Assembly (NCBI GenBank): GCA_022226935.1
Contig: CP092081.1
Span: 3,844,770-3,908,769 of the forward strand
Reading direction: 5' to 3'
DNA: 64,000 nt
DNA from: Nitrospira sp.
Lineage (GTDB): Bacteria > Nitrospirota > Nitrospiria > Nitrospirales > Nitrospiraceae
In this document: piece after piece, positions 5,612 through 19,964 of the stretch
Numbering within the stretch: position 1 is the stretch's first letter
Layout: each line of letters begins with the position of its first letter
The notes under the pieces: model-generated
What the model was told of the DNA's origin: nothing
The model's database searches: none
Seen by the model: only the letters and a program-made list of their open reading frames with translations
Made by a program: the position numbers and the translations under genes

Positions 5612-5659
5612 GCCCTTTTAAGGCGAGGGTCCTGGGTTCGAATCCCAGCCGACTCACCA
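5612..5659 (+). other. tRNA 3'-end remnant, likely attachment site of the island
   Basis: The segment contains the 3' half of a tRNA: an anticodon-arm-like stem, a perfect T arm (CTGGG-TTCGAAT-CCCAG), a 3' acceptor strand CCGACTC, a discriminator A and an encoded CCA. No matching D arm or 5' acceptor strand lies at the right distance (only 62 bases from the nearest partial match), so this is not a complete tRNA gene. The integrase gene ends 16 bases beyond. A similar remnant lies at 27301-27346, matching 34 of 38 bases over 5612-5649. Tyrosine integrases often recombine in tRNA 3' ends, so this is a plausible left attachment site. Confidence 0.6.
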
Positions 5660-5674
5660 CCTAAAATCAACAAC

Positions 5675-6760
5675 TTACGAGACGTTCAGGCCTCGAAAAT
5701 CTTCACAAACCGCCCCGTGTGCTAAATTTGTGCTAACCCGTTCTGGTCGGCGCTCATCTAGCACATTCACACCTTCTCTCAAGCTCTCTGGCGAGTGATG
5801 CGCATAACGTTGCGTCATCAAATTCGTCTTATGCCCAAGCAGCCGTTGGACCTTGTAGAGATCCACGCCACGCTGAACCAATCGCGTGGCGAAGGTATGC
5901 CGCATGTCGTGAAACCGGAAGTCTGGAATCCCGGCCCGATTGCGAGCCTCACAAAACTCCCGCACCAGAAAGCGCACTTGTAGGAGATTGCCGAGGGGAG
6001 TCTTAAACACCGGCCCACGTGAGAGGCCGGTTGAGGCCTGTTTCGTGGCTAGCAGTTCATACACCCGGGTATTCAAGGGGATGGTTCGGCGCGTGCCGTT
6101 CTTGCTCTGCATGACGATCAAGGTGCCGCGAGAAAAATCCACTTCCTGCCATTGCAGTTTTAGGATCTCCCCCTGACGCATGCCCGTATTGAGGGCAAAG
6201 ACCATGATCTCTTGCAGCCAAGGGGAAGAAGTCGCCATGAGCCGTTCTTCTTCCTCAGCCGTCAACCAGCGGTCTACCTCGTTTCGGACTTGTTCCATGG
6301 AAACCCGGTGCATGGGGTTTTCCCGGCACCATTCCCATTCGCGCATAGCCAGATTGAAGGCATGCCGGACGAGTTGGAGTTCCTTGTTGATGGTGGCAGG
6401 AGCGGCTTGCTCCGTTCGTCGCTGGGCCTTGTACTGTGCCATCACTTTCGGTGTGATATGCGCGAGAACCTTCTCTCCCAGCACTGGGAGGAGGTGCCCC
6501 AAGGCTGCTTGGTCTCGTAACCGGCTTTTGATCGCTTTCAGGGTTGCCCGCTCCGTGACGTACCGTTCCATCATCTCCTTGAACGTGCGCTCCTGTTCCT
6601 CACGCCGTTCAAAAAACTGACCTTCGGCTATTTGGACCTTCACCTTGGCATAGATGGCTTCGGCCAGCTGCTTTTTGGTGGTGCCGGTACTTCGCCGAAC
6701 TTGTTGCCCGTGGAACATGAAACTCATCCACCACACGTTCTTACGTTTTGTCAGCCCCAT
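5675..6760 (-). CDS. Tyrosine recombinase / integrase
   Basis: 361 residues from the ATG at 6760, which has AAGGAGG six bases upstream; a longer frame to 6964 overlaps the preceding gene and lacks a ribosome site. The N-terminus has an Arm-type DNA-binding region (WWMSFMFHGQQVRRSTGTT), then a core-binding domain. The catalytic set is complete: Arg in 'TGMRQGEIL' (about 195), Lys in 'QSKNG' (220), His and Arg in 'HDMRHTF' (284, 287), His in 'LGHK' (310) and the Tyr nucleophile in 'TQRYAHHS' (319). It catalyses site-specific integration and excision. It is last in the rep-alpA-int order and sits beside the tRNA remnant. One 21-bp repeat copy lies inside its last codons. Confidence 0.93.
   Translation of the reverse strand: MGLTKRKNVWWMSFMFHGQQVRRSTGTTKKQLAEAIYAKVKVQIAEGQFFERREEQERTFKEMMERYVTERATLKAIKSRLRDQAALGHLLPVLGEKVLAHITPKVMAQYKAQRRTEQAAPATINKELQLVRHAFNLAMREWEWCRENPMHRVSMEQVRNEVDRWLTAEEEERLMATSSPWLQEIMVFALNTGMRQGEILKLQWQEVDFSRGTLIVMQSKNGTRRTIPLNTRVYELLATKQASTGLSRGPVFKTPLGNLLQVRFLVREFCEARNRAGIPDFRFHDMRHTFATRLVQRGVDLYKVQRLLGHKTNLMTQRYAHHSPESLREGVNVLDERRPERVSTNLAHGAVCEDFRGLNVS
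5716..5736. repeat. 21-bp direct repeat, left copy
   Basis: Identical over 21 bases to 11372-11392 and in the same orientation. The core is two TGTGCTAA units separated by ATT. It lies within the 3' end of the integrase gene, a common place for an attachment core or integrase arm-binding sites. Confidence 0.8.
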
Positions 6761-7061
6761 CTGCATCCTCCTTCTGGATGAGGCCTGATTTCGGTCTAGT
6801 TTCCCCGTGGCGGGGAGTATAGACCTCGCGTTTGGCCGCTTCAATGACGTGGTCAATGTCGCAACTGTTGTGGCGAATGGGGAAGGGCAGAGGCTTTTGT
6901 GGAATGTTATTGCAGGTGTCCAGCCAGGTCTGGATAGCCTCGCGCTCGAACCGGACAAGGCCATACATACGTCGGCAAGGGATTTTTCCTTTCGCCGCCC
7001 AGCTATAGAGGGTGGCAGGTTTGATATTGAGCCAGTCGGAAACTTCTTGGACCGTGAGCAT
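6741..7061 (-). CDS. AlpA/excisionase-type helix-turn-helix protein
   Basis: 106 residues. The first 50 form a MerR-like winged HTH of the AlpA/excisionase class: 'MLTVQEVSDWLNIKPATLYSW' is the HTH, followed by 'GKIPCRRMYGLVRFEREAIQTWL', in which the wing and the 'RF....I..WL' ending are typical. The remainder is polar and probably disordered. Such proteins act as recombination directionality factors or activate integrase transcription. It lies between rep and integrase on the same strand, and its stop overlaps the integrase ribosome site by about 20 bases, so the two are translationally linked. Confidence 0.85.
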   Translation of the reverse strand: MLTVQEVSDWLNIKPATLYSWAAKGKIPCRRMYGLVRFEREAIQTWLDTCNNIPQKPLPFPIRHNSCDIDHVIEAAKREVYTPRHGETRPKSGLIQKEDADGADKT

Positions 7062-7103: not shown

Positions 7104-8114
7104 CTACAGTGGACTGCCCGCGTTGCCGCCGGCAGGTGTTGAGACAGACCGTTTGGGTTTCTTTTTGAGCAGGTTCCGGTGTCGGTCTTTCCACCGGGAA
7201 ATGCCCCTCACAATTTCATCTTGCAACCAGGCTTCCCCGCCAGGTGTCGCACAGAGGACCGCGAGCATCGGCGTTAATGATCCGCTCACCCAGTTTTTGA
7301 CTCCTGTGAGCGTCTGTTCTTGCTTTTCCAATACTAAGCGGGCTCTCTGAAACCCTTCCGTCAGGATGGCGTACCATTCGACGAGTGGGGCTCGGCAGCG
7401 GTACTCATCGTCATCCTCCCGCGTCGTCTGCCGAAAATCCACATGGGACCGGAGAAGTCCCACGATAAATTCTCGCCAGAGCGATTCATCAAAGTAGGCA
7501 AGGGCATTCCCGCAGATCTTGGCCCGTGTCTTCTTGAATTCGAGCTCCCAGCGCACCCCATAGTCCTGCCAGTTCTCTCGTTCCTTGCTCTGAAGTTCGA
7601 GGCGCTTGTCGTAGATGCGTAACAGGGTCTCGCTTTGAGCGCTTCCCACATAGATCGTCTCCCCTGTGGTGGCATAGCTGTCATGTATGCGATTCGAGAC
7701 AAATCGTCGAACCTCTTTAGCACGAGTCACACATTGCCCAACTTCCAAGGCCTGAGCAATCGTCGCTAAGGGGACCGTTGCGGCTCGATCATCCAGGGCA
7801 CAGTCAATTCGCGTGAGGTGCCCTTGCTTCTCGATCACCCACTGGAGGAGTGAACGGACCTCTTGGCGTGTGTAGGCCGAGACAATGCCGCCTGAAAGAT
7901 CGACGTGGATTTCATTTGGACGGCGGGGAGCATTTGTGCCGAGTTTGCCGACGCCCCGCAGGCCATCGACCCTAATCCAGGAGAGGGGGTATCCGCGAAA
8001 CCCCGCTTTGGCCTTGTTCCACTCTCCACCGAGCATGTGCATGGTCTCTTCGGGATTGCTGGCGGGAACAGTAAACGCGAGCCAATCAATGGAGAGCGTG
8101 AACGGAGAATCCAT
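7104..8114 (-). CDS. Rep_trans-type rolling-circle replication initiator
   Basis: 336 residues matching the replication initiation factor family (Rep_trans, Pfam PF02486). The hallmarks seen are 'LTRIDCALDD' (metal-binding/RCR motif region, about residue 100) and 'IYVGSAQSETLLRIYDKRLE' with the candidate catalytic Tyr. A helical C-terminal half and a basic tail (RWKDRHRNLLKKKPKR) follow. These proteins nick one strand at an origin and can serve as relaxase-like mobilisation proteins in small integrative elements. Overlapping hairpins lie just upstream of the start (8139-8179). It is 42 bases upstream of the alpA-like gene, so rep, alpA and int form one minus-strand unit. Confidence 0.85.
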   Translation of the reverse strand: MDSPFTLSIDWLAFTVPASNPEETMHMLGGEWNKAKAGFRGYPLSWIRVDGLRGVGKLGTNAPRRPNEIHVDLSGGIVSAYTRQEVRSLLQWVIEKQGHLTRIDCALDDRAATVPLATIAQALEVGQCVTRAKEVRRFVSNRIHDSYATTGETIYVGSAQSETLLRIYDKRLELQSKERENWQDYGVRWELEFKKTRAKICGNALAYFDESLWREFIVGLLRSHVDFRQTTREDDDEYRCRAPLVEWYAILTEGFQRARLVLEKQEQTLTGVKNWVSGSLTPMLAVLCATPGGEAWLQDEIVRGISRWKDRHRNLLKKKPKRSVSTPAGGNAGSPL

Positions 8115-8138
8115 AGAATCTATCGACCTCCTAGAATA

Positions 8139-8179
8139 GGCGCTCTAAGTAGCGCCCCCGTGTTACCACGACGGGGGCG
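8139..8179. promoter_or_regulatory. Overlapping hairpins upstream of rep: candidate origin or attenuator
   Basis: Two inverted repeats share bases and cannot form together. GGCGCT pairs with AGCGCC (8139-8156, 6-bp stem). CGCCCCCGT pairs with ACGGGGGCG (8153-8179, 9-bp stem, 9-base loop). They lie 25-65 bases upstream of the rep start. Rolling-circle elements often keep their double-strand origin near rep, so this is a candidate nick-site region; alternatively it may act as a transcript attenuator. More GC-rich inverted sequence continues to about 8215. Confidence 0.4.
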
Positions 8180-8274
8180 GTTCCGCCCCGCCCCGCAGCC
8201 TATCGGCATGCGGCGCCGGGCGGCTTCACCGGTGGAGCACAGGAGATTGCATTGCAGTACATTTCTCATGGCGG

Positions 8275-8691
8275 CTATTGCTTAGATTTCCGCCCTCGCT
8301 TTTGCTTCACGGCGGCATTGCGGGGTGCCCTTACGAGCTTTTCCCCCTTACCACTTGCTGGCTCCTCGGCCTCAAATTGTTTCAGATACTTTTGTGAGAG
8401 CTGAGCGAAGGTCACGCCTGGTCCGATTTGTTCCCACTCTGCTTCGCCATCCTCACGGAAGCCGAGCGGTTTTTCTCCGATATTCTTTGTCGGAAGATCC
8501 TGAGCCAGTTGATCAAGTCCAGCTGCGAGAATATCGCCAATCAGATCGGTCATCGTTTTTCGTGGGTAGAGTTCGCTTAACGCGGCAAGTTGCGCGGCAA
8601 CGCGAACCGGCAAACGGACCGTGTATTGCTTTGCGGTGAGTCGTGAATGGTCCGGTGCATTCCAGATTGCGTGCAGATCTTTTGTATTCAT
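8275..8691 (-). CDS. Ribbon-helix-helix (CopG/Arc-like) regulator
   Basis: 138 residues. The section 'KQYTVRLPVRVAAQLAALSE' followed by 'YPRKTMTDLIGDILAAGLDQL' has the strand-helix-helix layout of a ribbon-helix-helix DNA-binding domain at about residues 22-65. A Lys/Arg-rich tail (KQKRGRKSKQ) ends the protein. GGAGG precedes the ATG at 8691. A good promoter with two tandem palindrome-like sites lies directly upstream (8711-8752), suggesting autoregulation. In small replicons such proteins control copy number or rep expression. It is the first gene of the minus-strand group and is divergent from the cargo operon. Confidence 0.75.
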   Translation of the reverse strand: MNTKDLHAIWNAPDHSRLTAKQYTVRLPVRVAAQLAALSELYPRKTMTDLIGDILAAGLDQLAQDLPTKNIGEKPLGFREDGEAEWEQIGPGVTFAQLSQKYLKQFEAEEPASGKGEKLVRAPRNAAVKQKRGRKSKQ

Positions 8692-8710: not shown

Positions 8711-8752
8711 AGACGTTATTGAAAGTCTATGCAAGACGTTGAGTAAAGTCAA
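8711..8752 (-). promoter_or_regulatory. Promoter of the RHH gene with two tandem operator-like sites
   Basis: On the minus strand TTGACT (8747-8752) and TAGACT (8724-8729) are separated by 17 bases, a good vegetative sigma-factor promoter for the gene starting at 8691. Two 16- to 17-base sites of the form GACGTT-N4-AAAGTC, imperfect palindromes, lie at 8711-8727 and 8734-8750, offset by 23 bases (about two helical turns). They cover the -10 and -35 elements respectively. This is the arrangement expected for cooperative repression by an RHH dimer pair. Confidence 0.6.
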
Positions 8753-8957: not shown

Positions 8958-10247
8958 GTGGGAGTAAGAACACTAAATATTGTTAGGCTTAACGATTCTC
9001 AACTTCTCAAGGGGCTTGAGGCTGTAGCTCGAGATGTTGGGTCCCACCCAGGAGCGACACTAACTATAACGATGGGTGATCGCCAGAACTCACCTCTGCA
9101 ACTTTCCATAGAAACTATGTATGAAAATGAGCTTATACAGGAGATCCAGAAGGCAGAATCTAGGATCTTCTGGAACGTTGTAGTTCATTTCCCGAAAATA
9201 AATGCTCACTGCACGGTTAAAAGGAATGATGCGTTTGACCAGGTGGAAATCAATTATCAGGATGACAAGCCTGCCAAGTACATTTCTTTAATCTCCTCAG
9301 TCCAAAAATCACTTAAGGCAATCGATAAGATCGAAAGTATCGAAAGAGTATTAGGAGGCGAGGTCGCAGAGTTTTATCGGAAACGAGAGGAAAGTTTATT
9401 TCGGTTAGAGGAATTGAGTCAAAAACTGATTGAGCAGAATGAGCAGTATAGGCGCCACTTGGACCAGCAGAATGCAGATCGTAGCCAGAAGCTGGAAGCT
9501 GACACGGAGATGCAACGTAAGAGCCTCGAGGAGATCTTTTTAACAAAAAGAAATGAGCTTACTGACCGTGAGCAGAAATTGGAAGAACGGACAAAACAAT
9601 TGGATGATAGAAGTAGCAGGCATGCTCGCCGTCAGTTACGGCAGGATCTAAAGAGCGAGCTAGCAAAGAGGAGCCAGATGTTTTCGTTAACGCAAGGTAC
9701 AACTTCCAAGCGGGTGCCGATTCATCTTTTATTCGGGGTTTTAATAGCCATCCCGATGTTTGTTTTTGCTCAATCCTTCTACTATGGTCTTACTCATACG
9801 GATGGCTCCATTTCATGGGTTCTAGTAACCAAATCTCTGATGTCGGCCTCTGCCACTGCTGCAGCTATTATCTATTACATTAAATGGACAAACGATTGGT
9901 TCGACCAGCATGCCGAGGAAGAATTTCACTTGAAACGACTCGAACTGGATATCGACAGGGCAAGTTGGGTAGTTGAAATGGCTCTTGAATGGAGGGATGA
10001 GAAGGGGGCAGAAATTCCAACGGAGCTCATTGATCGATTGTCTCGAAATCTCTTCGTTTCGGAATCCATCGACAGAAAGGGATTAAGTCATCCTACCCAA
10101 GATTTGGCCTCTGCACTTTTGGATGCGTCTACCAACTTGTCCCTTCGTTTTCCTGGCTTTGCCGAGGCTCGTTTTGACCGCAAAGGCCTTAAGAATTTCA
10201 AGCGAGAAACTATTAATAAGCCCCCAATAGAATCTATGACAGTCTAA
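8958..10247 (+). CDS. Coiled-coil membrane protein of unknown function (element cargo 1)
   Basis: GTG start with GGAGG six bases upstream; 429 residues. Layout: a mixed alpha/beta N-terminal domain (1-115), a long charged coiled coil (about 118-245, many Glu/Lys/Arg/Gln heptads such as 'EEIFLTKRNELTDREQKLEE'), two membrane segments (about 253-275 and 287-306) and a soluble C-terminal region of some 120 residues. The coding GC is far below that of the flanking genes. I recognise no family. The architecture (cytoplasmic sensor-like head, coiled coil, membrane anchor) is compatible with a membrane-associated defence or envelope protein, but that is speculation. It is followed 112 bases later by a second cargo gene on the same strand. 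Confidence 0.65.
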   Translation: MGVRTLNIVRLNDSQLLKGLEAVARDVGSHPGATLTITMGDRQNSPLQLSIETMYENELIQEIQKAESRIFWNVVVHFPKINAHCTVKRNDAFDQVEINYQDDKPAKYISLISSVQKSLKAIDKIESIERVLGGEVAEFYRKREESLFRLEELSQKLIEQNEQYRRHLDQQNADRSQKLEADTEMQRKSLEEIFLTKRNELTDREQKLEERTKQLDDRSSRHARRQLRQDLKSELAKRSQMFSLTQGTTSKRVPIHLLFGVLIAIPMFVFAQSFYYGLTHTDGSISWVLVTKSLMSASATAAAIIYYIKWTNDWFDQHAEEEFHLKRLELDIDRASWVVEMALEWRDEKGAEIPTELIDRLSRNLFVSESIDRKGLSHPTQDLASALLDASTNLSLRFPGFAEARFDRKGLKNFKRETINKPPIESMTV

Positions 10248-10359: not shown

Positions 10360-11334
10360 ATGATTGGATTGATAGTAGCCTGCTCGCTAATTGTTAGTTT
10401 GTTCTTGGGTAGCGTCGAAGATGTTCTTGGGCTTGAATGTCCAAAAGCCCCGGAGCAGATGAACAAAGAATTAGTATTTGAAGGAAGCGGAAAGGTAAAC
10501 CTTGAATGGAATGCGCTGATAAAGAAGGCGGTGAATCTGTCAGGGGTAGAATTAGCTGCGAAAGCAAAGCAGATTACCACGGACATACTTACTCGGTTAC
10601 CAAGGGCCGATCACTTATATGTAGAGCAGATGACGTTTTCCGCCTATTGTTCTTCACTGAGAGATGATCACGCCATCACTGAGAGCGAGAAGTCAAAACG
10701 TCTGCAAAATTATATAGAAGCTGTTAGAAAGACAATTCAAACACACACTCCGAGAAACAAAAAGCCTGCAAAGCAAATGAGCGGATCAGCCAAGGAGCTA
10801 ATTCAATTATACCGCGCGCGAGCTGCGGAGACTGTGAAAAGAATAGAAGGTGCGATTAAGAACATTCGGTTGGAAACTTCCAAAAAAACAGCAGGCATGA
10901 TGTGTGTTGATATTGGAGGTTCCAATGGTGACTCTTCAGCCAGCTCAAAGAGTAAATCCACTCGCACTCTCAAAAATCGCAATGAAATGATCGTAGCGGA
11001 GCCTGAAGAGAGTGAGTCGGAAATTTGTCAGCGTGTTAAGCGGGAAGCGGTAGATATTACCGACCATCTAGAATACCTCAAGCAGAGGTTCGAGGACCTG
11101 CATAAGTCGCACATTGAATCTATACAGGAGGACAATCGGAATTTAGAGAGAGTGCTCTTAGACCAAATCTTAAACCTGTTGTATCAATACAACGTAATCG
11201 TGGCTGGAAATATTGGTATTGGGCCAGGCACTTATGCAACAGGTTTTAGAGAGGTCATCGTTAACATTCGTGAAGCTGCAGGTTTTTATGAAGCAGATCT
11301 TGACGATATTTATGAGGGTATTGAGCCAAGCTAA
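10360..11334 (+). CDS. Exported or membrane-anchored protein of unknown function (element cargo 2)
   Basis: 324 residues with an N-terminal hydrophobic segment (MIGLIVACSLIVSLFLGSV) that is either a signal peptide or an anchor. The rest is mostly helical. It contains 'FSAYCSSLRDDHAITESEK', a motif style I associate with uncharacterised bacterial proteins having helical effector-like domains; a Ser-rich linker (about 185-215); and a conserved-looking end 'GNIGIGPGTYATGFREVI'. A ribosome-site-like GGGAGGAG lies upstream of the ATG. GC is low, as in the preceding gene, and both lie inside the 21-bp repeats. The two probably work together. No function can be assigned from sequence alone. Confidence 0.6.
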   Translation: MIGLIVACSLIVSLFLGSVEDVLGLECPKAPEQMNKELVFEGSGKVNLEWNALIKKAVNLSGVELAAKAKQITTDILTRLPRADHLYVEQMTFSAYCSSLRDDHAITESEKSKRLQNYIEAVRKTIQTHTPRNKKPAKQMSGSAKELIQLYRARAAETVKRIEGAIKNIRLETSKKTAGMMCVDIGGSNGDSSASSKSKSTRTLKNRNEMIVAEPEESESEICQRVKREAVDITDHLEYLKQRFEDLHKSHIESIQEDNRNLERVLLDQILNLLYQYNVIVAGNIGIGPGTYATGFREVIVNIREAAGFYEADLDDIYEGIEPS

Positions 11335-11371: not shown

Positions 11372-11392
11372 CGTGTGCTAAATTTGTGCTAA
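11372..11392. repeat. 21-bp direct repeat, right copy
   Basis: Perfect copy of 5716-5736. Immediately to the right, the truncated Ig-like/RHS reading frame opens at 11403, after an in-frame TAA at 11400-11402. The sharp change of GC and gene content here makes it the best candidate for the right end of the small element. Confidence 0.75.
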
Positions 11393-11402
11393 AACTTTTT
11401 AA

Positions 11403-14400
11403 AATGGACTCCCTAATCCCAAGACGATTCGTGCGGGATCGACCAGTCCGGTACTGGCTGTCCTGTTCCCGGTCCCGCTCCAAGCGACGACCCTGTCGGT
11501 GGTGAGTACCGCGGCGAGCATCGCCAGCGTGCCCAGCAATGTTCCCGTCGGTATCGGCCAGGCCTTCGTGTCGATTCCAGTCACCGGGGTGAGTGCCGGC
11601 ACTACTCAGATCAACGTGACGCTCAACGAGAAGACCATCACCAGCACCGTTCGCGTGGTGGGCGGGGCGGCGACCGTCAGTAGTCTCTCGCCCGCTGCGC
11701 TGAGCATCACCCAAGGAGGGAGCGGGCAACTGACGGTCTCCCTCAACGCCGCCCAGGCGACGAATACGGCCGTGACCTTGAGCAGTTCCGCCGGCAGTAT
11801 CGCGGCCGTCCCGGCGACCGTGATGGTGCCGGCCGGGCAGGTGAGTGCGTCGTTCAACGTGGCGGCCAACACTGCCGGGCAAGCGGATATCACCGCCACT
11901 CTCAACGGCACCAGTGCAACCAGCCATGTCACGGTGACGCCGACGTTGCCCACCGTGGTCTCCCTCACCCCACCGGTGAGCCAGCTCACCCTCGGCGCGA
12001 CGAGTTCGTTAACCGTCACTCTTTCCGCAGCCCAAGTTGGTCCGACCACCGTCGCGCTCACGACCACGCCCAGTGGGGTCGTGACGGTGCCAGCTTCCGT
12101 GATCGTCCCGGCCGGGCAGACGCAGGCATCGTTCACCGTGACGTCGGTGGCCTTGGGCACGGCCATGGTCCGGGCCACGCTCGGTAGTTCATTGGCCGAA
12201 GCCGCTTTGGATGTGGTGCCTCCGATCGTCGCCTTGGTAGATGTCCAACCAGCCAGCCAGTCCCTCGTGGTCGGCGCGATCGGGACTCTCACCGTCACCC
12301 TGAATGCCGCCCAAAGCAGCCCCACGGATATTGCCCTGTCTGTGGATCAACCGACGGTCCTGCAGATCCCTGCCACGCAGAGCGTGACGGTGCCGCCGAA
12401 CCAGACGCAGGCCGCCTTCACGGTCACGGCTCTCGCCACCGGCGCGGCACAGGTGACGGCGACCCTCGGTGGCGCCAGTAAGCAGGCTACGGTGACTGTG
12501 ACGCCGCAACCGCCGCAGGTGCTTGCACTCACGCCGAGTCCCTTGAATGTGGTGCAGGGGGCGACGGGGACACTTACGCTGACGATCAATGCCGCGCAAC
12601 CGACGGATACGATTGTCCCGCTCACGACCACCAACGCCACGATGGTGGGAGTCCCTGTCAGTGTCACCGTGCCGGCCGGGTCCACGACAGCGCCGGTCTC
12701 AGTGAGTGCCCTCACGGTTGGGACGGCGACCGTCACCGCGACGTTGAACGGCACGGCGACGGCCACGGTGAATACCGTTCCGCCTCCGCCGGTCGTCACG
12801 ATCCTCGAGCCGCTCTCGCCGGTGACGGCTCCCTTGACCCTGCCCAAGGGCCGGACGGGTGTGTTGCAGGTCACGATCAATCGAGCCCCGACGGATCCGA
12901 CGGTGATCACGCTGCAGAACAGTGCCACCTCGGTGGTCACCGTGCCACCCAGCGTGACCGTCGCCGCCGGGCAATTGACCGCATCGTTCCCGGTGACCAC
13001 CCAGACCCAAGGCCAGGCGACCATCACGGCCTCGTTCAACAGCACGAGCGCCACCGCGCAGGTGGTCGTCACCGCGCCGGAAGTGGAGTCACTCACGGTC
13101 GACCCAGCTGGACCCACGGCGTTGGTCGGCGAATCCATCGCTTTCACGGCCACCGGCCTGTTCACCGACGGCAGCAGCCAGCTGCTCGCGAATGATGTGA
13201 CGTGGACCTCAACCAATCAGTCTGTCGCGGCAATCGGCAGTACGGGGCTTGCCACCGCGCTCGCCGTGGGCCCCACCACCATTCGCGCCACCCTCACCAC
13301 GTCTGTCGGACCGGTGACTGGCGCGACCACCCTCACGGTGCAGCCGGCGCCGGCCCTAGTGGTCACGCCGCTGACCACCTCTCTGACGGTCGGGCAGAAC
13401 GCGCTCTTCACGGTCGGGACTGCCGTGGCTCCCACGTCGGCGCTTACCGTGACGCTGGCCCTTTCAGGGAGCGGGACGGCGCTGCTCAGTCCCACGTCGG
13501 TCGTGATTTCCGCCGGGCAAACCACCTCGCCGACGCCCGTGCAGGTCACCGCCACCGGCATCGGCTCGGTGTTGCTCACCGCCACGGCCCCGGTGCGCCA
13601 GTCAGCCAGCAGTACCCTCACCATCACCGCCGGGCTTCCCGCGATCACCAGTGTGAGCCCCGCCACAGGGATGGTGGGGACGGTCGTGACGCTGACGGGA
13701 TCGAGCTTCAACACAGTGGCGTCGAATAATCAGGTGCGCTTCGGGGGCGTGCTCGCGACGGTTCTCTCGGTGAGTACGACCGGCGCCTCCTTGACGACGG
13801 CCGTCCCGTCCGGCGCGCTCACCGGGCCGGTCACGGTCACGACCCCTCTCGGAACAGCCACCAGTCCGCTCCCATTCACCTTATTGAATAGTCCGCCTGT
13901 CATCACGCCGATCGGCAACCGGACTCTTTCCTTAGGCAGCACCCTGGCCTTCACCGTCTCCGGCGTGGATCCCAATGGACAGACGGTGACGTACGGGGCC
14001 CAGCAAGCCGCGCCCGCGTCGGCGACCTTGCCGGCGCATATGGCCTTCAACGCGCAGACCGGTGTCTTTAGTTTCACGCCTGATGCGACGCAGGTCGGGA
14101 CGTTCAATATGGTGTTCTCGGCGTCCGATGGATCGGTGTTCTCCTCAGAAACCGTCGCGATCACGGTGACGGGAGCAATCCCGGGCGCACCGACCAGCCT
14201 GTCTGGCCGTGTTGACGATAGTTCCGGCAACCCCGTGGCGGGCGTCGCCGTCTCCTTGCGCGATGTGCCCACGACCACCACCACCAATGCCGCCGGCGAG
14301 TTCACCCTGGCGTTTGCCGGCCATCCGGCGGGCCGCCAGCTCTTGGTGGTCACGGGCGTCTCGGCAGGCTATGCGAATTTGGTCGCCCCCGTGGACCTCA

Positions 14401-17400
14401 TCGGCAACACGGCCAACGTGTTGCCGAGCCCCGTCACTACGCCACCGTTGGATCTTGCCACCGCGGTTACCGTGAACCCGGCGGCCACCACGACTCTGAC
14501 CAGCCCGACGGCCCACGTGACGGTGATCATTCCGCCGGGTCGCGCGAAGAATGCCGATGGGACGCCCTATACCGGCCAGCTGACCATCAGTCCCGTGCCA
14601 GAATACGGCCGTCCGGAATCGCGCCCCGTGGAATTACGCCCGGGTCTCTCCGTCACCATTCAACCGGCTGGGGTGGTACTGGATCCTCCGGTCGCGATTA
14701 CGTTCCCAAATGTCGACAATATGCCGCCGGGCAACGAGTTTGATCTCTGGTCCTTGTATCCGGACACCGGCACGTTCTTGGTGGTCGGGCGCATGCGCGT
14801 CAGTGCCGATGGGGCGACTGTGGAGATGGTTCCGGGAACGGGCGGCGTGCGCAAGACCGCCTGGCATTTTGCCATGCCTCCGGAATCCCGGGCCGAGGTC
14901 CAGGACGTGCCGAGCAAGGATGGCGACTGCGTGGCCTGTCGGACCGCCTCGGAAGTCGATCTCACGGCCGGCGCCCTCTCGCACGATGAAGTGATTCCGG
15001 GCATCCGCACACTGGGCGTCAGTCGCGATCTGACGCTGCACTACCGGTCGACGAATGCCGATGTGCAACGCATTCTCCCGGTCAATGCGACCCTGCGGGT
15101 CCAGGCCGCCGTGCCCGCGACCTTCTCGGCACGACTCTCGATCGGGGGCGTGCAGCTGGGACAGGACCGCTATTGGGATAGCCATACGCTGCCGGAGAAC
15201 GCGGATTCGGTCTCCCGGTTGGGCGTGCAATTTGATGGCAGCACCTTGCCGACCGGCGTCTACCCCTATGAACTGCTCCTGTTCTCCAACTATCCGCAAT
15301 CCAGCATCGGCGGGATCACGCGCAATCAGGTGCTGCTCCGGAACGAACAGGCCAGTCCCTTCGGTGCCGGGTGGACCCTCACGGCGCTCGATCGCCTGTC
15401 TCCGCAAGCAGACGGGTCGGTGGTGTTGGCCAAGGGAAGCGGCAGCACCTTCTTGTATGGCGCGGCCGGCCGGCCGCTCATCGTGGAAAGCTTTGATCAG
15501 GCCCGCAGCCTCACGGTCGGCGGCGTCAACGCCAGCTTTGTCTCCGGCGCGATGCATGCCGCGGCGCGGAACGACCTGCTCAATCCCGTCAACTTCGGCG
15601 CGCTCGGAACCGTTCGCCGTCCCGTCACGATGCGCAGCGGCCTCAACATCGTCACCTTGCCCGCCCTCGCCGGCGTGGATGTGTTCGTGTTGAATCTGCT
15701 GACAACCGACCTGACCCCGACGGAGGTCCAAGTCCTTGAGCAGTTTGTGCGTGGGGGCGGCACCATCCTGGAGATTCGCAATGCCGGCCAGACCAGGCCG
15801 TTGCTGCTGGGCACCTTGCCGGGTCCCTTTATCGGCGACCTCACGGCCGATGTCACCGCTGACGGGCTCACGTCGCCGCTGGGCAACGGCCCGTTCGGCA
15901 CGATCCTCAGTCCGCTCTTGACGGGCGGCACCGACGGCTATGCCACCACGGGGCCGGCCACGGTGCTGGCGCGGAACGACCTGTGGCCCAATGCGCTGTT
16001 GCTGCCACCCGGTACGGTCTTCTCCGGAGCGGGACGGGCGGTGTTGATCGGTGATGAAGAGATCGTGGCCTCGGGTTACACGGGCGGCGCGGGGGCCAAC
16101 CGCTATGCCGAAGGCTCGAATCGCACCTTCTTTCTGAACGCCATGGCCTACCTGGCGAATGCGCCGGGGTACCAACCGGTGCTGCCCAGTGGCCCGACCC
16201 CGGTGACCCTACAAGGGCCACCCGATGAGACGGCGGTTCTGGTGCGTCAGGTGGATGGGACCTACACCCGTACCACCAAGGACGGGGCGGTCTCTCAGTT
16301 CAACGCGCAGGGATGGCTGACGGCCCAGCGGGATCGCAACGGGAATCAGACCGGGTATGCCTATGACGGCAGCGGACGGCTCCTGACGATCACCGATCCG
16401 ACCGGGCAGGTTACCACGCTGGCCTATAGCGGGGGCAAGGTGAGCAGCGTCACCGACCCGGCGGGGCGTGTGACGCAGTTGGAGTATGACGCCAGTGGGA
16501 ACTTGCAGCGGGTGCGCGGCGCGGATGCCACGGCGGTGACCTTCGCCTACGACGCCCAGCACCGGCTGATTCGCCGCACCGATGCGCGCAATCAGGTTTT
16601 CCAGTACCGCTACGATGCCGCTGGCCGGTTTGCCGAGGCCACGCTGCCGGACGGGGCCACCCGAGCCCTAGCGTCGAGCCAGACCGTGGCCGTCCCCAAT
16701 TTCACCACTGGCCAGGGCACGGCCGGCAATCCGGCGCCGTTGAGCGCGACCAGTCTGAATCGGGCGACGTTTACCGATGCCAAGGCGCAGGCGACGACGT
16801 TTGAATTGGATGCGTTGAGCCGGGTCACCAAGCAGACCGATGCGCTGAACCGGGTCACGACCATTCAGCGCAATGCCCAGGGGAATCCCACGCAGATCAC
16901 GCGGCCCAACGGCGCCGTGACCGTGATGACCTATGATGCCAAGGGCAACCTGCTCACGAGCACGGAGCAGGCCATCAACGCGACGACGACGTTCACCTAT
17001 GAGCCGACCTTCAATCAGGTGACCAGCATCCGCGATCCCAAGGGGAATCTCACGCAGATCGCCTATGATGCGAACGGTAACCCGCTCACCATCACCGACG
17101 CGCTCAACCAGGTGACGACCTTTACCTACAACCCGCAGGGCCTCCTCCTCACGACGAAGGACGCGCTGAATCAGGCCACCAGCTTGACCTATGATGCCCT
17201 CGGGCGATTGCTCACCACGACTGATCCGCTAGCCCGTACGACGACGCTGACCTATGACGCGGCGGGCAACGTGGCCACCAGCACCGATGCGCTGAACCGG
17301 GTCACGACATTCACCTATGATGTCAGGAACCGCCTCACCCAGGTGACCGACCCGAATGCGGGCATCACCCGCTACGCCTATGACGGCAACGGGAATCTCC

Positions 17401-19964
17401 TCACGGTCACGGATGCGAAGAACCAGGCTACCACTTTCGCCTACGACAGCCGCAACCGGCTGCTCAGCACCACCGATCCCTTGGGCAAAGTCGAGGCCTA
17501 CACTTACGACGGCAACGACAACCTCACCAAGCGCCACACGCCGAAGGGGGACGACATTCTCTTCGCCTACGATGCGGTGAACCAGCTCGTGAGCAAAACC
17601 CTGCCCGGCACCCAGGTCACCCGTTACGCCTACGACCTCGTGGGCAACTTGACCCGCGTGACCGATCCGGATAGCGTGCTGGCCCTGACCTATGACCAGG
17701 CGAATCGGCTGCTGAGTGTGAAGACCGACGGCTCGCCGAACCAACCGGCCGTGACGCTGGGCTACGCCTATGACCAGAATGGCAACCGGCTGACGCGTGC
17801 GGATCAGGCCACCTCCATCAGCTATCATTACGACGGCGTGAATCGCCTGACGGGCCTGGGCAACGGCGTGACCCTGCCGCCGCCGGCCACCAATCGCGTG
17901 GCCTGGTGGAAGGGGGAAGGTACAGCAGCCGACGAACAGGGGACGAACCCCGGTACCCTGCGCAATGGGGTGAGCTTCGCAGCAGGTTTCGCCGGTCAGG
18001 CCTTTCAGTTCGACGGCGTCGACGATGAGATTGGCTTTACCAGCACGGTGGGCCGCTTCGGATTCCAAGCGACCGTTGAGTTCTGGGTCAAGACGACCTC
18101 GACGCGGCGCGAGACGATCATGAGTGATCGGCTGACCTGCACCGTCACGTCCCCGGCCAACGCGGCCTCCTGGGAGCTACAGATGCAACCGAACGGCACG
18201 GCCAGCTTTGCCGTCGCAGGCCCGGACGCAGGGGCTGGGACCACGTTGGTGAGCGCCGGCGTGGCCACCACGCATCCGGTCAATGACGGGCAATGGCATC
18301 GGATCGCCGCCGTGCGCAATGGCACGGAACAACGGCTCTATCTGGATGGCCAGCTAGAGGGATTCTGGAATTATGTCAACGGCCCGCCGCTGCTCACCGG
18401 ACTCCCGACAGGCGGATTGCGCCTGGGGGCCGGTGGGTGTGGCACCAGTCTGTTCACCGGCCAATTGGATGAAATCACGATCGCCGATCGGGCCTGGACC
18501 CTGGCCGAACTGCAGGCGCCTCGCAGCCAAGAGCAACCCGTCGCCAATTGGAGCTACGACGTGCTGTCGCGTCGGACAGCCATGACCCTGTCGAACGGGA
18601 CCCAGACGACGTATCAATACGATCCGGCCAGCCAGGTGACCCAGATCCTGCATCAACTGACGGCGACGTCGACCCAGATCAACAAAGCGGAGTACCTGTA
18701 CAACGGGGTGGGCAACAGAACGTCATTGACGGATCGCCGTGGGCCGCAGACGTTTGGGTACGACACGCTCGATCGACTGACCAGCGCGAGTCACCCCTTG
18801 CTCCTTGATCCGCAGGCCTTTGCGTACGATGCGGTCGGCAACCGCACGACAGGCGGGAGTGTCGTCAATGCAGGTAATCAGCTGACGGCGGATAGCAACT
18901 TTGCCTACCAGTACGACGACAACGGGAATCTCGCGAGAAAGACCCTCCTCGCGACGGGGAATTACACGCAGTACACGTATGACGCTGAGAATCGCCTGAT
19001 TCAGGTACAGGAATTTGCCGCTGGCAATCCTACCGCCACCACGACGAGTACGTATCGGTATGATGGCCTGGGCCGACGAATCGAAAAGGTCGCCAACGGC
19101 CTAACCAAGCGATACATCTATGATGGCGAGGACATTCTGTTAGAGTACGATGGCGCGAATGTCCTCCAGGCTCGCTACACGCACGGCCCTGGCATTGACG
19201 AGCCAATTGCGGTCACCCAAGGTGCGAGTACCTTCTTTTATCATCAAGACGGCCTTGGATCGGTCGCGGAATTGACGGATTCAACCGGTGGCACGGCCAA
19301 GAGCTATGCGTACGATGCGTATGGGAATATTCTGGAATCCCCTGGTGCCATCGAACAACCGTATACGTATACGGGACGGGAGCTCGATCAAGAGACCGGG
19401 CTCTATTACTACCGGGCGCGGTACTATGATGCGGCGACGGGGAAGTTCTTACAGAAGGATCCGATTGGTCTTCATGGAGGACTGAACCCCTACAGCTATG
19501 TCCTGAACAATCCTATCAACCGAGTAGATCCTTCGGGGCTTTATACCTCCGCTCGGTGGCTTGCCGCGCCGAGGCTTACGGATATCAATACCAAAAAAGT
19601 TGGCAATATGGGCTTTGGTGAATACTGGACTCTAATACCGCCTGCGATTGGCATTGACGGCGAGTGGTACATGCTGTCGGCCGAAGTTACAGGCCGTGTC
19701 GAATGCATTGATGATGGAGCCTGTGACAAGGAGGAAACTAAAGATGTGTTTCAGGTGCAGGAAGCTGTAGGTGCTAGGATTGGCATCGGGTGGGGCATTA
19801 CTACTCTCCCCCGTCTTCAAGCTGCGAGGAAAGTCGGCGAAGCATTCAGCAGGGTTGATGACGCAGTCGAGTTTTACAGAAACCAATGGACGCAGCTTGC
19901 ATTGAAGATGAATAACAATCCGATGACTTGGTGCACGATAATGAGCGTGGGCCAAGCCAAATGA
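11403..19964 (+). CDS. Giant Ig-like/RHS polymorphic toxin, 5' end missing
   Basis: The frame opens at 11403 in the middle of an Ig-like unit, so the start and any signal peptide are lost; the GTG at 11499 is only the first usable codon. Order of domains: about seven Ig-like units ending in 'ATLGG'-type strands, then a Big_2-like unit (DGSSQLLANDVTWTS), an IPT/TIG unit (VSPATGMVGTVVTLTG), a putative-Ig/cadherin-like unit, a carboxypeptidase-regulatory-like unit, and a middle region. Many YD/RHS repeats follow from about 16220, a LamG-like domain (17886-18520) and the RHS core (YTGRELDQETGLYYYRARYY). A unique low-GC tip of about 140 residues comes after 'DPSGL'. RHS cores encapsulate a C-terminal toxin released by self-cleavage. 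The tip (19545-19964) matches nothing I know. A membrane protein gene follows 28 bases later. Confidence 0.85.
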   Translation, partial: NGLPNPKTIRAGSTSPVLAVLFPVPLQATTLSVVSTAASIASVPSNVPVGIGQAFVSIPVTGVSAGTTQINVTLNEKTITSTVRVVGGAATVSSLSPAALSITQGGSGQLTVSLNAAQATNTAVTLSSSAGSIAAVPATVMVPAGQVSASFNVAANTAGQADITATLNGTSATSHVTVTPTLPTVVSLTPPVSQLTLGATSSLTVTLSAAQVGPTTVALTTTPSGVVTVPASVIVPAGQTQASFTVTSVALGTAMVRATLGSSLAEAALDVVPPIVALVDVQPASQSLVVGAIGTLTVTLNAAQSSPTDIALSVDQPTVLQIPATQSVTVPPNQTQAAFTVTALATGAAQVTATLGGASKQATVTVTPQPPQVLALTPSPLNVVQGATGTLTLTINAAQPTDTIVPLTTTNATMVGVPVSVTVPAGSTTAPVSVSALTVGTATVTATLNGTATATVNTVPPPPVVTILEPLSPVTAPLTLPKGRTGVLQVTINRAPTDPTVITLQNSATSVVTVPPSVTVAAGQLTASFPVTTQTQGQATITASFNSTSATAQVVVTAPEVESLTVDPAGPTALVGESIAFTATGLFTDGSSQLLANDVTWTSTNQSVAAIGSTGLATALAVGPTTIRATLTTSVGPVTGATTLTVQPAPALVVTPLTTSLTVGQNALFTVGTAVAPTSALTVTLALSGSGTALLSPTSVVISAGQTTSPTPVQVTATGIGSVLLTATAPVRQSASSTLTITAGLPAITSVSPATGMVGTVVTLTGSSFNTVASNNQVRFGGVLATVLSVSTTGASLTTAVPSGALTGPVTVTTPLGTATSPLPFTLLNSPPVITPIGNRTLSLGSTLAFTVSGVDPNGQTVTYGAQQAAPASATLPAHMAFNAQTGVFSFTPDATQVGTFNMVFSASDGSVFSSETVAITVTGAIPGAPTSLSGRVDDSSGNPVAGVAVSLRDVPTTTTTNAAGEFTLAFAGHPAGRQLLVVTGVSAGYANLVAPVDLIGNTANVLPSPVTTPPLDLATAVTVNPAATTTLTSPTAHVTVIIPPGRAKNADGTPYTGQLTISPVPEYGRPESRPVELRPGLSVTIQPAGVVLDPPVAITFPNVDNMPPGNEFDLWSLYPDTGTFLVVGRMRVSADGATVEMVPGTGGVRKTAWHFAMPPESRAEVQDVPSKDGDCVACRTASEVDLTAGALSHDEVIPGIRTLGVSRDLTLHYRSTNADVQRILPVNATLRVQAAVPATFSARLSIGGVQLGQDRYWDSHTLPENADSVSRLGVQFDGSTLPTGVYPYELLLFSNYPQSSIGGITRNQVLLRNEQASPFGAGWTLTALDRLSPQADGSVVLAKGSGSTFLYGAAGRPLIVESFDQARSLTVGGVNASFVSGAMHAAARNDLLNPVNFGALGTVRRPVTMRSGLNIVTLPALAGVDVFVLNLLTTDLTPTEVQVLEQFVRGGGTILEIRNAGQTRPLLLGTLPGPFIGDLTADVTADGLTSPLGNGPFGTILSPLLTGGTDGYATTGPATVLARNDLWPNALLLPPGTVFSGAGRAVLIGDEEIVASGYTGGAGANRYAEGSNRTFFLNAMAYLANAPGYQPVLPSGPTPVTLQGPPDETAVLVRQVDGTYTRTTKDGAVSQFNAQGWLTAQRDRNGNQTGYAYDGSGRLLTITDPTGQVTTLAYSGGKVSSVTDPAGRVTQLEYDASGNLQRVRGADATAVTFAYDAQHRLIRRTDARNQVFQYRYDAAGRFAEATLPDGATRALASSQTVAVPNFTTGQGTAGNPAPLSATSLNRATFTDAKAQATTFELDALSRVTKQTDALNRVTTIQRNAQGNPTQITRPNGAVTVMTYDAKGNLLTSTEQAINATTTFTYEPTFNQVTSIRDPKGNLTQIAYDANGNPLTITDALNQVTTFTYNPQGLLLTTKDALNQATSLTYDALGRLLTTTDPLARTTTLTYDAAGNVATSTDALNRVTTFTYDVRNRLTQVTDPNAGITRYAYDGNGNLLTVTDAKNQATTFAYDSRNRLLSTTDPLGKVEAYTYDGNDNLTKRHTPKGDDILFAYDAVNQLVSKTLPGTQVTRYAYDLVGNLTRVTDPDSVLALTYDQANRLLSVKTDGSPNQPAVTLGYAYDQNGNRLTRADQATSISYHYDGVNRLTGLGNGVTLPPPATNRVAWWKGEGTAADEQGTNPGTLRNGVSFAAGFAGQAFQFDGVDDEIGFTSTVGRFGFQATVEFWVKTTSTRRETIMSDRLTCTVTSPANAASWELQMQPNGTASFAVAGPDAGAGTTLVSAGVATTHPVNDGQWHRIAAVRNGTEQRLYLDGQLEGFWNYVNGPPLLTGLPTGGLRLGAGGCGTSLFTGQLDEITIADRAWTLAELQAPRSQEQPVANWSYDVLSRRTAMTLSNGTQTTYQYDPASQVTQILHQLTATSTQINKAEYLYNGVGNRTSLTDRRGPQTFGYDTLDRLTSASHPLLLDPQAFAYDAVGNRTTGGSVVNAGNQLTADSNFAYQYDDNGNLARKTLLATGNYTQYTYDAENRLIQVQEFAAGNPTATTTSTYRYDGLGRRIEKVANGLTKRYIYDGEDILLEYDGANVLQARYTHGPGIDEPIAVTQGASTFFYHQDGLGSVAELTDSTGGTAKSYAYDAYGNILESPGAIEQPYTYTGRELDQETGLYYYRARYYDAATGKFLQKDPIGLHGGLNPYSYVLNNPINRVDPSGLYTSARWLAAPRLTDINTKKVGNMGFGEYWTLIPPAIGIDGEWYMLSAEVTGRVECIDDGACDKEETKDVFQVQEAVGARIGIGWGITTLPRLQAARKVGEAFSRVDDAVEFYRNQWTQLALKMNNNPMTWCTIMSVGQAK
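17512..19468. repeat. RHS cassette unit, duplicated at 20349-22294
   Basis: YD repeats, LamG-like domain and RHS core up to 'KDPIG' are repeated in the same orientation at 20349-22294 with high identity and nearly equal length (1957 versus 1946 bases). A partial third copy covers about 23510-24085. Identity stops exactly where the variable tip begins. This is the layout expected for tip exchange by homologous recombination. Confidence 0.85.

Follow-up and report, generated by a model that had tools for sequence, protein, structure and literature searches.

Operator-like half-sites over the promoter of a putative ribbon–helix–helix regulator gene ahead of replication and excision genes in an integrated element of Nitrospira

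This study concerns a putative integrated genetic element of Nitrospira sp. and the repeated sites in front of its first gene. The element lies in a window of 64,000 nucleotides from contig CP092081.1, the window being the whole stretch of DNA that was analyzed. On the minus strand four genes follow each other: a gene for a protein of 138 amino acids (aa) with a predicted ribbon–helix–helix (RHH) core, rep, xis, and int (Table 1). Tyrosine integrase, excisionase, and Rep_trans gene are found together, the combination by which elements akin to integrative and mobilizable elements (IMEs) are recognized. A preliminary description, made from the letters alone, had linked the sites to the replication or excision genes. 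As far as gene order goes this is correct, as the RHH gene heads the run of rep, xis, and int.

Upstream of the RHH gene the sequence GACGTT-N4-AAAGTC is present in two exact copies, 23 bases apart from start to start, just where the preliminary description had placed them. The copies overlap the gene's own promoter, which is identified by consensus match: a −35 element TTGACT (8752-8747), a 17-base spacer, and a −10 element TAGACT (8729-8724), with 9 of the 12 consensus bases. A minus-strand promoter of this spacing had been proposed beneath the sites, and the match is indeed there; the promoter scan returns 2 promoter-like sites in 951 bases against a mean of 0.7 in shuffled sequences. Reduced to the half-site GACKTT, the motif occurs four times within 120 bases upstream of the start codon. 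Dinucleotide shuffles contain 0.13 on average and none of 20,000 reaches four, with a motif that was picked post hoc from sequence already inspected. The two 23-base units agree at 16 of 23 positions, with all 12 site bases matching and no base of the 4-base spacer. Because the matches take in every site base and no spacer base, a mere recent duplication is argued against. Each copy forms an imperfect palindrome (GACGTT versus GACTTT, 5 of 6 positions). The earlier claim of tandem palindromes stands only in part: the half-sites recur above shuffles, but palindromy in the region is at chance level (best 9-base arms 7 of 9, p 0.226). Neither does a direct repeat at 9-13 bases exceed shuffles in the window region (p 0.317). 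The signal is better read as an array of repeated half-sites than as strict tandem palindromes.

The core of the 138-aa protein is predicted to be RHH-like. In a prediction from two aligned sequences the core reaches a mean predicted local distance difference test score (pLDDT) of 88.9. The model consists of an extended segment and two helices, 13-25 and 31-49, no strand being assigned in the monomer, and corresponds to the strand–helix–helix core of about 45-50 residues by which RHH proteins are recognized. In a structural second look with VIA-align the best row is NikR (Z 6.2, root-mean-square deviation 1.9, 48 residues), followed by HicAB (5.8), ParD2 (5.7 and 5.5), the RHH domain of PrpA (5.4), and the Arc–operator complex (5.3), where by the tool's own warning a Z below 8 can reflect just a common arrangement. 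The predicted core, with RHH proteins as the best rows, supports the earlier assignment of the gene to this class.

The protein is rare. Carriers are 2 of 395 genomes of the phylum, this one and G024, and likewise 2 of 41 in a smaller search. Forty fetched loci of the same rep subfamily served as relatives throughout; with the window they make up 41 loci. A phage or plasmid origin was considered and rejected, as no relative could be confirmed in viral contigs or plasmids. The single "phage" match is OQ572403.1 (L076), an unannotated Pseudomonas record titled Pseudomonas phage Y1 and marked UNVERIFIED, which around 53-59 kb resembles a bacterial chromosome. It encodes a 114-aa protein (counted from its ATG) which is 33% identical over residues 1-119, the RHH core included. 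From their translations the surrounding genes look chromosomal; we take some of them to encode an 878-aa phosphoenolpyruvate-carboxylase-like, a MerR-like, and a metal-ATPase-like protein. Unlike in the window, no rep, xis, or int could be recognized by eye in the 6.4-kb stretch, nor a GACKTT array before the gene.

Within the genome the sites are confined to this locus. The pattern GACKTTN4AAMGTC occurs in the whole 4.23-Mb genome only at these two sites; its reversed form, used as a control, has one match on each strand. Of 29 genomes in the genus, this one alone shows the tandem pair. Since the genome holds no site elsewhere, a host regulon, which we had considered, is unlikely. Half-sites number 720 in the 827,658 bases that window and loci comprise together, and three or more of them within 40 bp are found at two promoters only, that of the window and that of locus L047. 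None of the 39 loci with an RHH protein of 82 aa or with neither RHH exceeds two half-sites in the stretch scanned (120 bases for the 18 RHH loci, 370 bases for the 23 others).

L047 carries the only orthologue found, and the presence of the motif upstream of orthologues, a check proposed at the outset, was examined there. The L047 protein is 77% identical to that of the window, and the putative strand residues KQYTVRLP are identical. Three half-sites lie in the 120 bases before its gene, a number reached by 2 of 20,000 shuffles in a test that is more independent than that on the window. By eye the two upstream regions have little else in common. The half-sites are thus present, but their arrangement is not kept: relative to the ATG they are at −56, −44, and −35 in L047 and at −59, −49, −36, and −26 in the window. 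Palindromy is not above shuffles in L047 either.

We suggest that the sites are probably the operator of an autorepressor, the 138-aa RHH protein, standing ahead of the replication and excision genes of the element. Dimers of the protein would bind the GACKTT half-sites across the −35 element, the spacer, and the −10 element of their own promoter and thereby shut it off. By read-through the Rep_trans initiator, the excisionase, and the integrase would be held low together with the RHH protein under negative feedback, so that all four stay low and self-limited until repression is lifted. Read-through into rep, xis, and int is proposed because of gene order and strand. The slot before rep would fit a control point for the whole gene run, because loci without either RHH carry another repeat array there. 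Binding and repression, as well as the number of dimers and the trigger that would lift the repression, are what we infer. RHH gene and cognate operator would together form an exchangeable module.

Table 1. Features of the putative element in the window
Feature	Position	Strand	Remarks
int-side attachment (att) sequence	5612..5659	+	48 bp matching exactly the 3′ portion of a tRNA-Lys(TTT) gene
int	5675..6964	-	tyrosine integrase
Arm-type repeat TGTGCTAAATTTGTG, int-side copy	5718..5732	none	
xis	6741..7061	-	HTH_17/excisionase-like; TIGR01764 above cut-off
rep	7104..8114	-	Rep_trans replication initiator/relaxase-like, PF02486, E 2.4e-30
Leader between RHH gene and rep	8115..8239	-	kept in related elements irrespective of their regulator; candidate region for a nick or origin
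GC-rich hairpin, GGTAA in the loop	8155..8177	-	candidate nic site (double-strand origin, dso, or origin of transfer, oriT)
Gene of the 138-aa RHH-like regulator	8275..8691	-	residues 17-66 are the predicted RHH core; no Pfam, PHROGs, or NCBIfam match
Operator-like site 2, GACGTTATTGAAAGTC	8712..8727	none	covers −10 and start region
Promoter-like element TTGACT-17-TAGACT	8724..8752	-	consensus match only
Operator-like site 1, GACGTTGAGTAAAGTC	8735..8750	none	covers −35 and spacer
Open reading frame (ORF) of 429 aa between the arm repeats	8958..10247	+	likely cargo; no Pfam family above cut-off
ORF of 324 aa between the arm repeats	10360..11334	+	likely cargo; no Pfam family above cut-off
Arm-type repeat TGTGCTAAATTTGTG, distal copy	11374..11388	none	family-like distal end lost just beyond

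Of the 29 genomes of the genus, 27 have the gene rep, many of them in several copies. Copies are numerous in G015, G018, G006, and G042; the highest number is 14 matches (G015), and several matches are fragments at contig ends. The leader before rep appears to be a good candidate for a nick or replication origin. The hairpin CCCCCGTCTTGGTAACACGGGGG or a one-base variant of it is present in 38 of 40 leaders, that of the window included; it is missing in the leaders of L041 and L063. In the second rep subfamily a related hairpin with GGTAA or GGTAG was found in 19 of 19 leaders examined. Two leaders were left out, as the start of rep is unclear in L072 and the leader of L098 is too short. PMC9371924 describes a nic hairpin with CT'AA for Rep_trans/MobT proteins, to which the leader hairpin is alike but not identical.

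The slot directly before rep is occupied differently in the relatives. The 82-aa RHH protein is encoded there in 16 of the 40 loci, the 138-aa protein in one, and neither of them in 23, some of which hold other ORFs. All 8 of the 82-aa proteins that were scanned match a model of NikA-like RHH mobilization proteins, the score above cut-off being shown for the first. In these 16 loci the promoter region is covered by AT-rich repeats with a 12-base period (on average 8.0 of 10 matches versus 5.1 in shuffles; z 9.5, 0 of 300 shuffles, 14 of 16 loci); periods of 7 and 14 bases are also raised. Taken one by one, 13 of the 16 loci have their best spacing at 12 bases. Palindromy reaches p < 0.05 in a single one of these 16 regions (L054); as it does not exceed shuffles in the window or in L047, we discarded it as a signal. 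The loci without either RHH show instead repeats of the type TGNCCCCTNN with a period of 10 bases (z 19.3, 20 of 23 loci; 11, 12, and 18 bases also raised), located 215-300 bases before rep in 20 loci, for example L037, L040, and L044. The period test left out the near-copies L067 and L068 of the 82-aa group and the loci L041, L063, and L072 with neither RHH. Its shuffles treat loci as independent, and shared descent inflates the z values. By eye, similar-looking repeats also seem to be present before the second rep subfamily.

In L041, L063, and L072 the upstream region or the leader has largely given way to unlike DNA, as if insertions had severed the module. Presumably the ORFs in L072 are transposase-like and the ORF just before rep in L063 is IstB-like. 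We also observed an ORF of 136-138 aa, about 520-940 bases before rep, which is common to L040, L043, and L048, three elements without either RHH. We take it to be PIN/VapC-like and possibly a cargo toxin.

On a tree of the Rep proteins (41 of 41 of the first and 3 of 20 of the second subfamily; the bootstrap had not settled) the regulator labels are scattered, and the 82-aa RHH requires 12 changes against 13.2 in shuffles. The Rep of L047 is 96.7% identical to that of L058, an 82-aa RHH locus, and only 70.1% identical to that of the window. By these figures near-identical Reps stand behind different regulators. An exchange of regulator–operator modules between elements, before a common rep, is in our view the best reading of these comparisons. 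Two results weigh against it. Well-supported branches force just 3 of the 12 changes of the 82-aa RHH, and an approximately unbiased (AU) test does not reject a single clade of the window and L047 Reps (p 0.254); the window Rep is a long branch on the tree. One could go further and think of a swappable "immunity cassette". RHH–operator pairs, together with the 10-bp repeat system of the loci without either RHH, would be exchanged between backbones and let differing elements coexist. This is a tentative idea which we rather doubt. If it were true, elements with different pairs would not repress each other and hence could coexist in one genome, such as G015 with its up to 14 rep matches, fragments included.

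A number of observations speak against the operator model itself, the chance-level palindromy of the window region being one. The steps between the half-sites differ, with 12 and 9 bases in L047 and 10, 13, and 10 bases in the window. A simple scan of the L047 upstream region finds no promoter. With just one orthologue found, the half-sites are kept in 1 of 1 cases and the arrangement is not. The RHH assignment is also weakened by several results. In Foldseek the best E-value for the core is 0.36, and the first 10 rows comprise seven eukaryotic transcription factors, which by their titles we take to be plant TCP-type factors, and three NikR. The 138-aa protein has no match in Pfam, PHROGs, and NCBIfam and a single unrelated row (E 0.23) among the PDB sequences, in a comparison that rested on 3 distinct sequences, that of the window included. 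The full-length model is poor (mean pLDDT 54.6) and its fold search was unusable. A profile comparison of the 138-aa protein with the 82-aa RHH gave no match. As to the gene run, a 160-base leader separates the RHH gene from rep. Finally, the window does not show the 12-base period found for the 82-aa group, and within that group just 4 of the 16 loci, taken singly, have a direct repeat with p < 0.05.

Other explanations have to be weighed. The RHH protein could mainly be an accessory of the relaxosome or of replication, resembling TraY, NikA, or MobC, which aids nicking by Rep at the hairpin, so that binding at the promoter would be a side effect or a secondary autoregulation. Such auxiliary RHH proteins at oriT are well known (PMC5675868, PMC9371924). 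The RHH gene does lie directly before the Rep_trans gene with a nick-like hairpin between them, and the 82-aa protein in the same slot of relatives matches the NikA-like model. However, the last 180 bases before rep contain no GACKTT in the window and one in L047, and the sites are about 540 bases away from the hairpin and on the promoter match. Moreover, hairpin and RHH gene are not linked. The hairpin is kept in nearly all leaders, whereas 23 of the 41 loci with the same rep have neither RHH gene. We therefore consider a mainly accessory role unlikely. It is still less probable that the repeats belong to another regulator, be it Xis, Rep, or a host factor, and that the RHH gene merely happens to lie downstream. 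The 10-base arrays at loci without either RHH do hint that a non-RHH regulator of the slot may exist. On the other hand xis and rep are shared among the loci, while GACKTT clusters are found only in the two of 41 where the 138-aa protein occurs, and the genome contains no further paired sites.

That the two sites are due to chance, or are a recently duplicated promoter segment without regulatory role, seems very improbable to us. Such a view can point to the partial agreement of the 23-base units and to palindromy at shuffle level. Yet the matches fall on the half-sites and not on the 4-base spacers, and the shuffle tests disagree with chance both for the post hoc motif in the window and for its recurrence in L047, without a third cluster in all the bases scanned. 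Hardly to be considered is an RHH antitoxin of a toxin–antitoxin pair with the sites as its operator. ParD2 and the KacTA complex are indeed among the structural matches, but no toxin-like neighbor was recognized: downstream lies rep, and upstream a divergent ORF without Pfam family above cut-off (NCBIfam and PADLOC were not run there). Autorepression by the 138-aa protein at its own promoter is thus the explanation we prefer.

The element that would be controlled in this way is best read, from its gene content and its relatives, as a tRNA-targeting, IME-like element of the Rep_trans type. Matches to xis and int are found beside rep in 38 of the 40 relatives, of which L065 has just a 30-residue piece of int away from the rep end. 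In L046 and L058, without xis and int matches, the stretch stops at a contig end just after rep. The same arm repeat is present on both sides in at least 20 of the 40 relatives, and direct repeats of 44-56 bp flank the element in at least 23. In 21 of those 23 a tRNA gene (Glu, Thr, Val, Arg, or Gly) is located at the int side. The copy in the window departs from this pattern. Its int-side att comprises just the 3′ half of tRNA-Lys. The intact tRNA-Lys(TTT) gene lies at a distance of 1.3 Mb, and within 4 kb of it there is one partial match to the arm repeat. No copy of the att core was found at the distal end, where the sequence ceases to be family-like shortly past the arm repeat. Beyond this repeat begins a very large, repeat-rich ORF (11499-19964, 2,821 aa), presumably Rhs-like sequence. 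As no att core turned up at that end, it is doubtful whether the window copy can excise; it may be rearranged or at an unusual site.

The proposed switch has known counterparts. CopG is a plasmid-encoded RHH autorepressor which controls the copy number of rolling circle plasmids. As in plasmids of the CopG type, a small RHH gene precedes a rep gene of rolling circle type and operator-like sites cover the promoter of the RHH gene. In contrast to CopG, the protein in the window has 138 aa with a C-terminal extension, no Pfam match, and GACKTT half-sites; in contrast to the plasmids, the element is integrated, includes int and xis in its gene run, and has a rep of the Rep_trans family. CopG is also named as an RHH repressor in PMC4803016. 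With Arc, NikR, and ParD-type domains the protein shares the predicted core of an extended segment and two helices (Z 5.1 to 6.2), but identity over the core is only 9-26% and there is no significant sequence match.

A gene of Rep_trans type with tyrosine integrase and excisionase is also known from the integrative and conjugative elements (ICEs) ICEBs1, Tn916, and ICESt3 and from streptococcal Rep_trans IMEs, as described in PMC9371924, PMC7563843, and PMC5704250. The GC-rich hairpin with a nick-like loop is shared with the MobT/Rep_trans ICEs and IMEs. These elements differ from ours in that they belong to another bacterial group, while the relatives of the window element target tRNA 3′ ends where tested; the window Rep scores 43.3 with the MobT model, far from the cut-off of 600. 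According to PMC7563843 a regulator gene is present in all but two IME_oriTs. The word "ribbon" has no occurrence in the streptococcal IME papers PMC7563843 and PMC5704250. A narrow literature search on Nitrospira and mobile elements gave no paper on such Nitrospira elements among the matches listed. The switch itself is of a known kind; the family of elements is little described, and of more interest is the apparent swapping of regulator modules ahead of a shared rep.

The findings offer a compact and testable pair of regulator and operator for a genus-wide family of integrated, rep-carrying elements in Nitrospira-type bacteria. As closely related rep genes are preceded, in one and the same slot, by three types of regulator, this family is a natural experiment on how repressors and operators change together.
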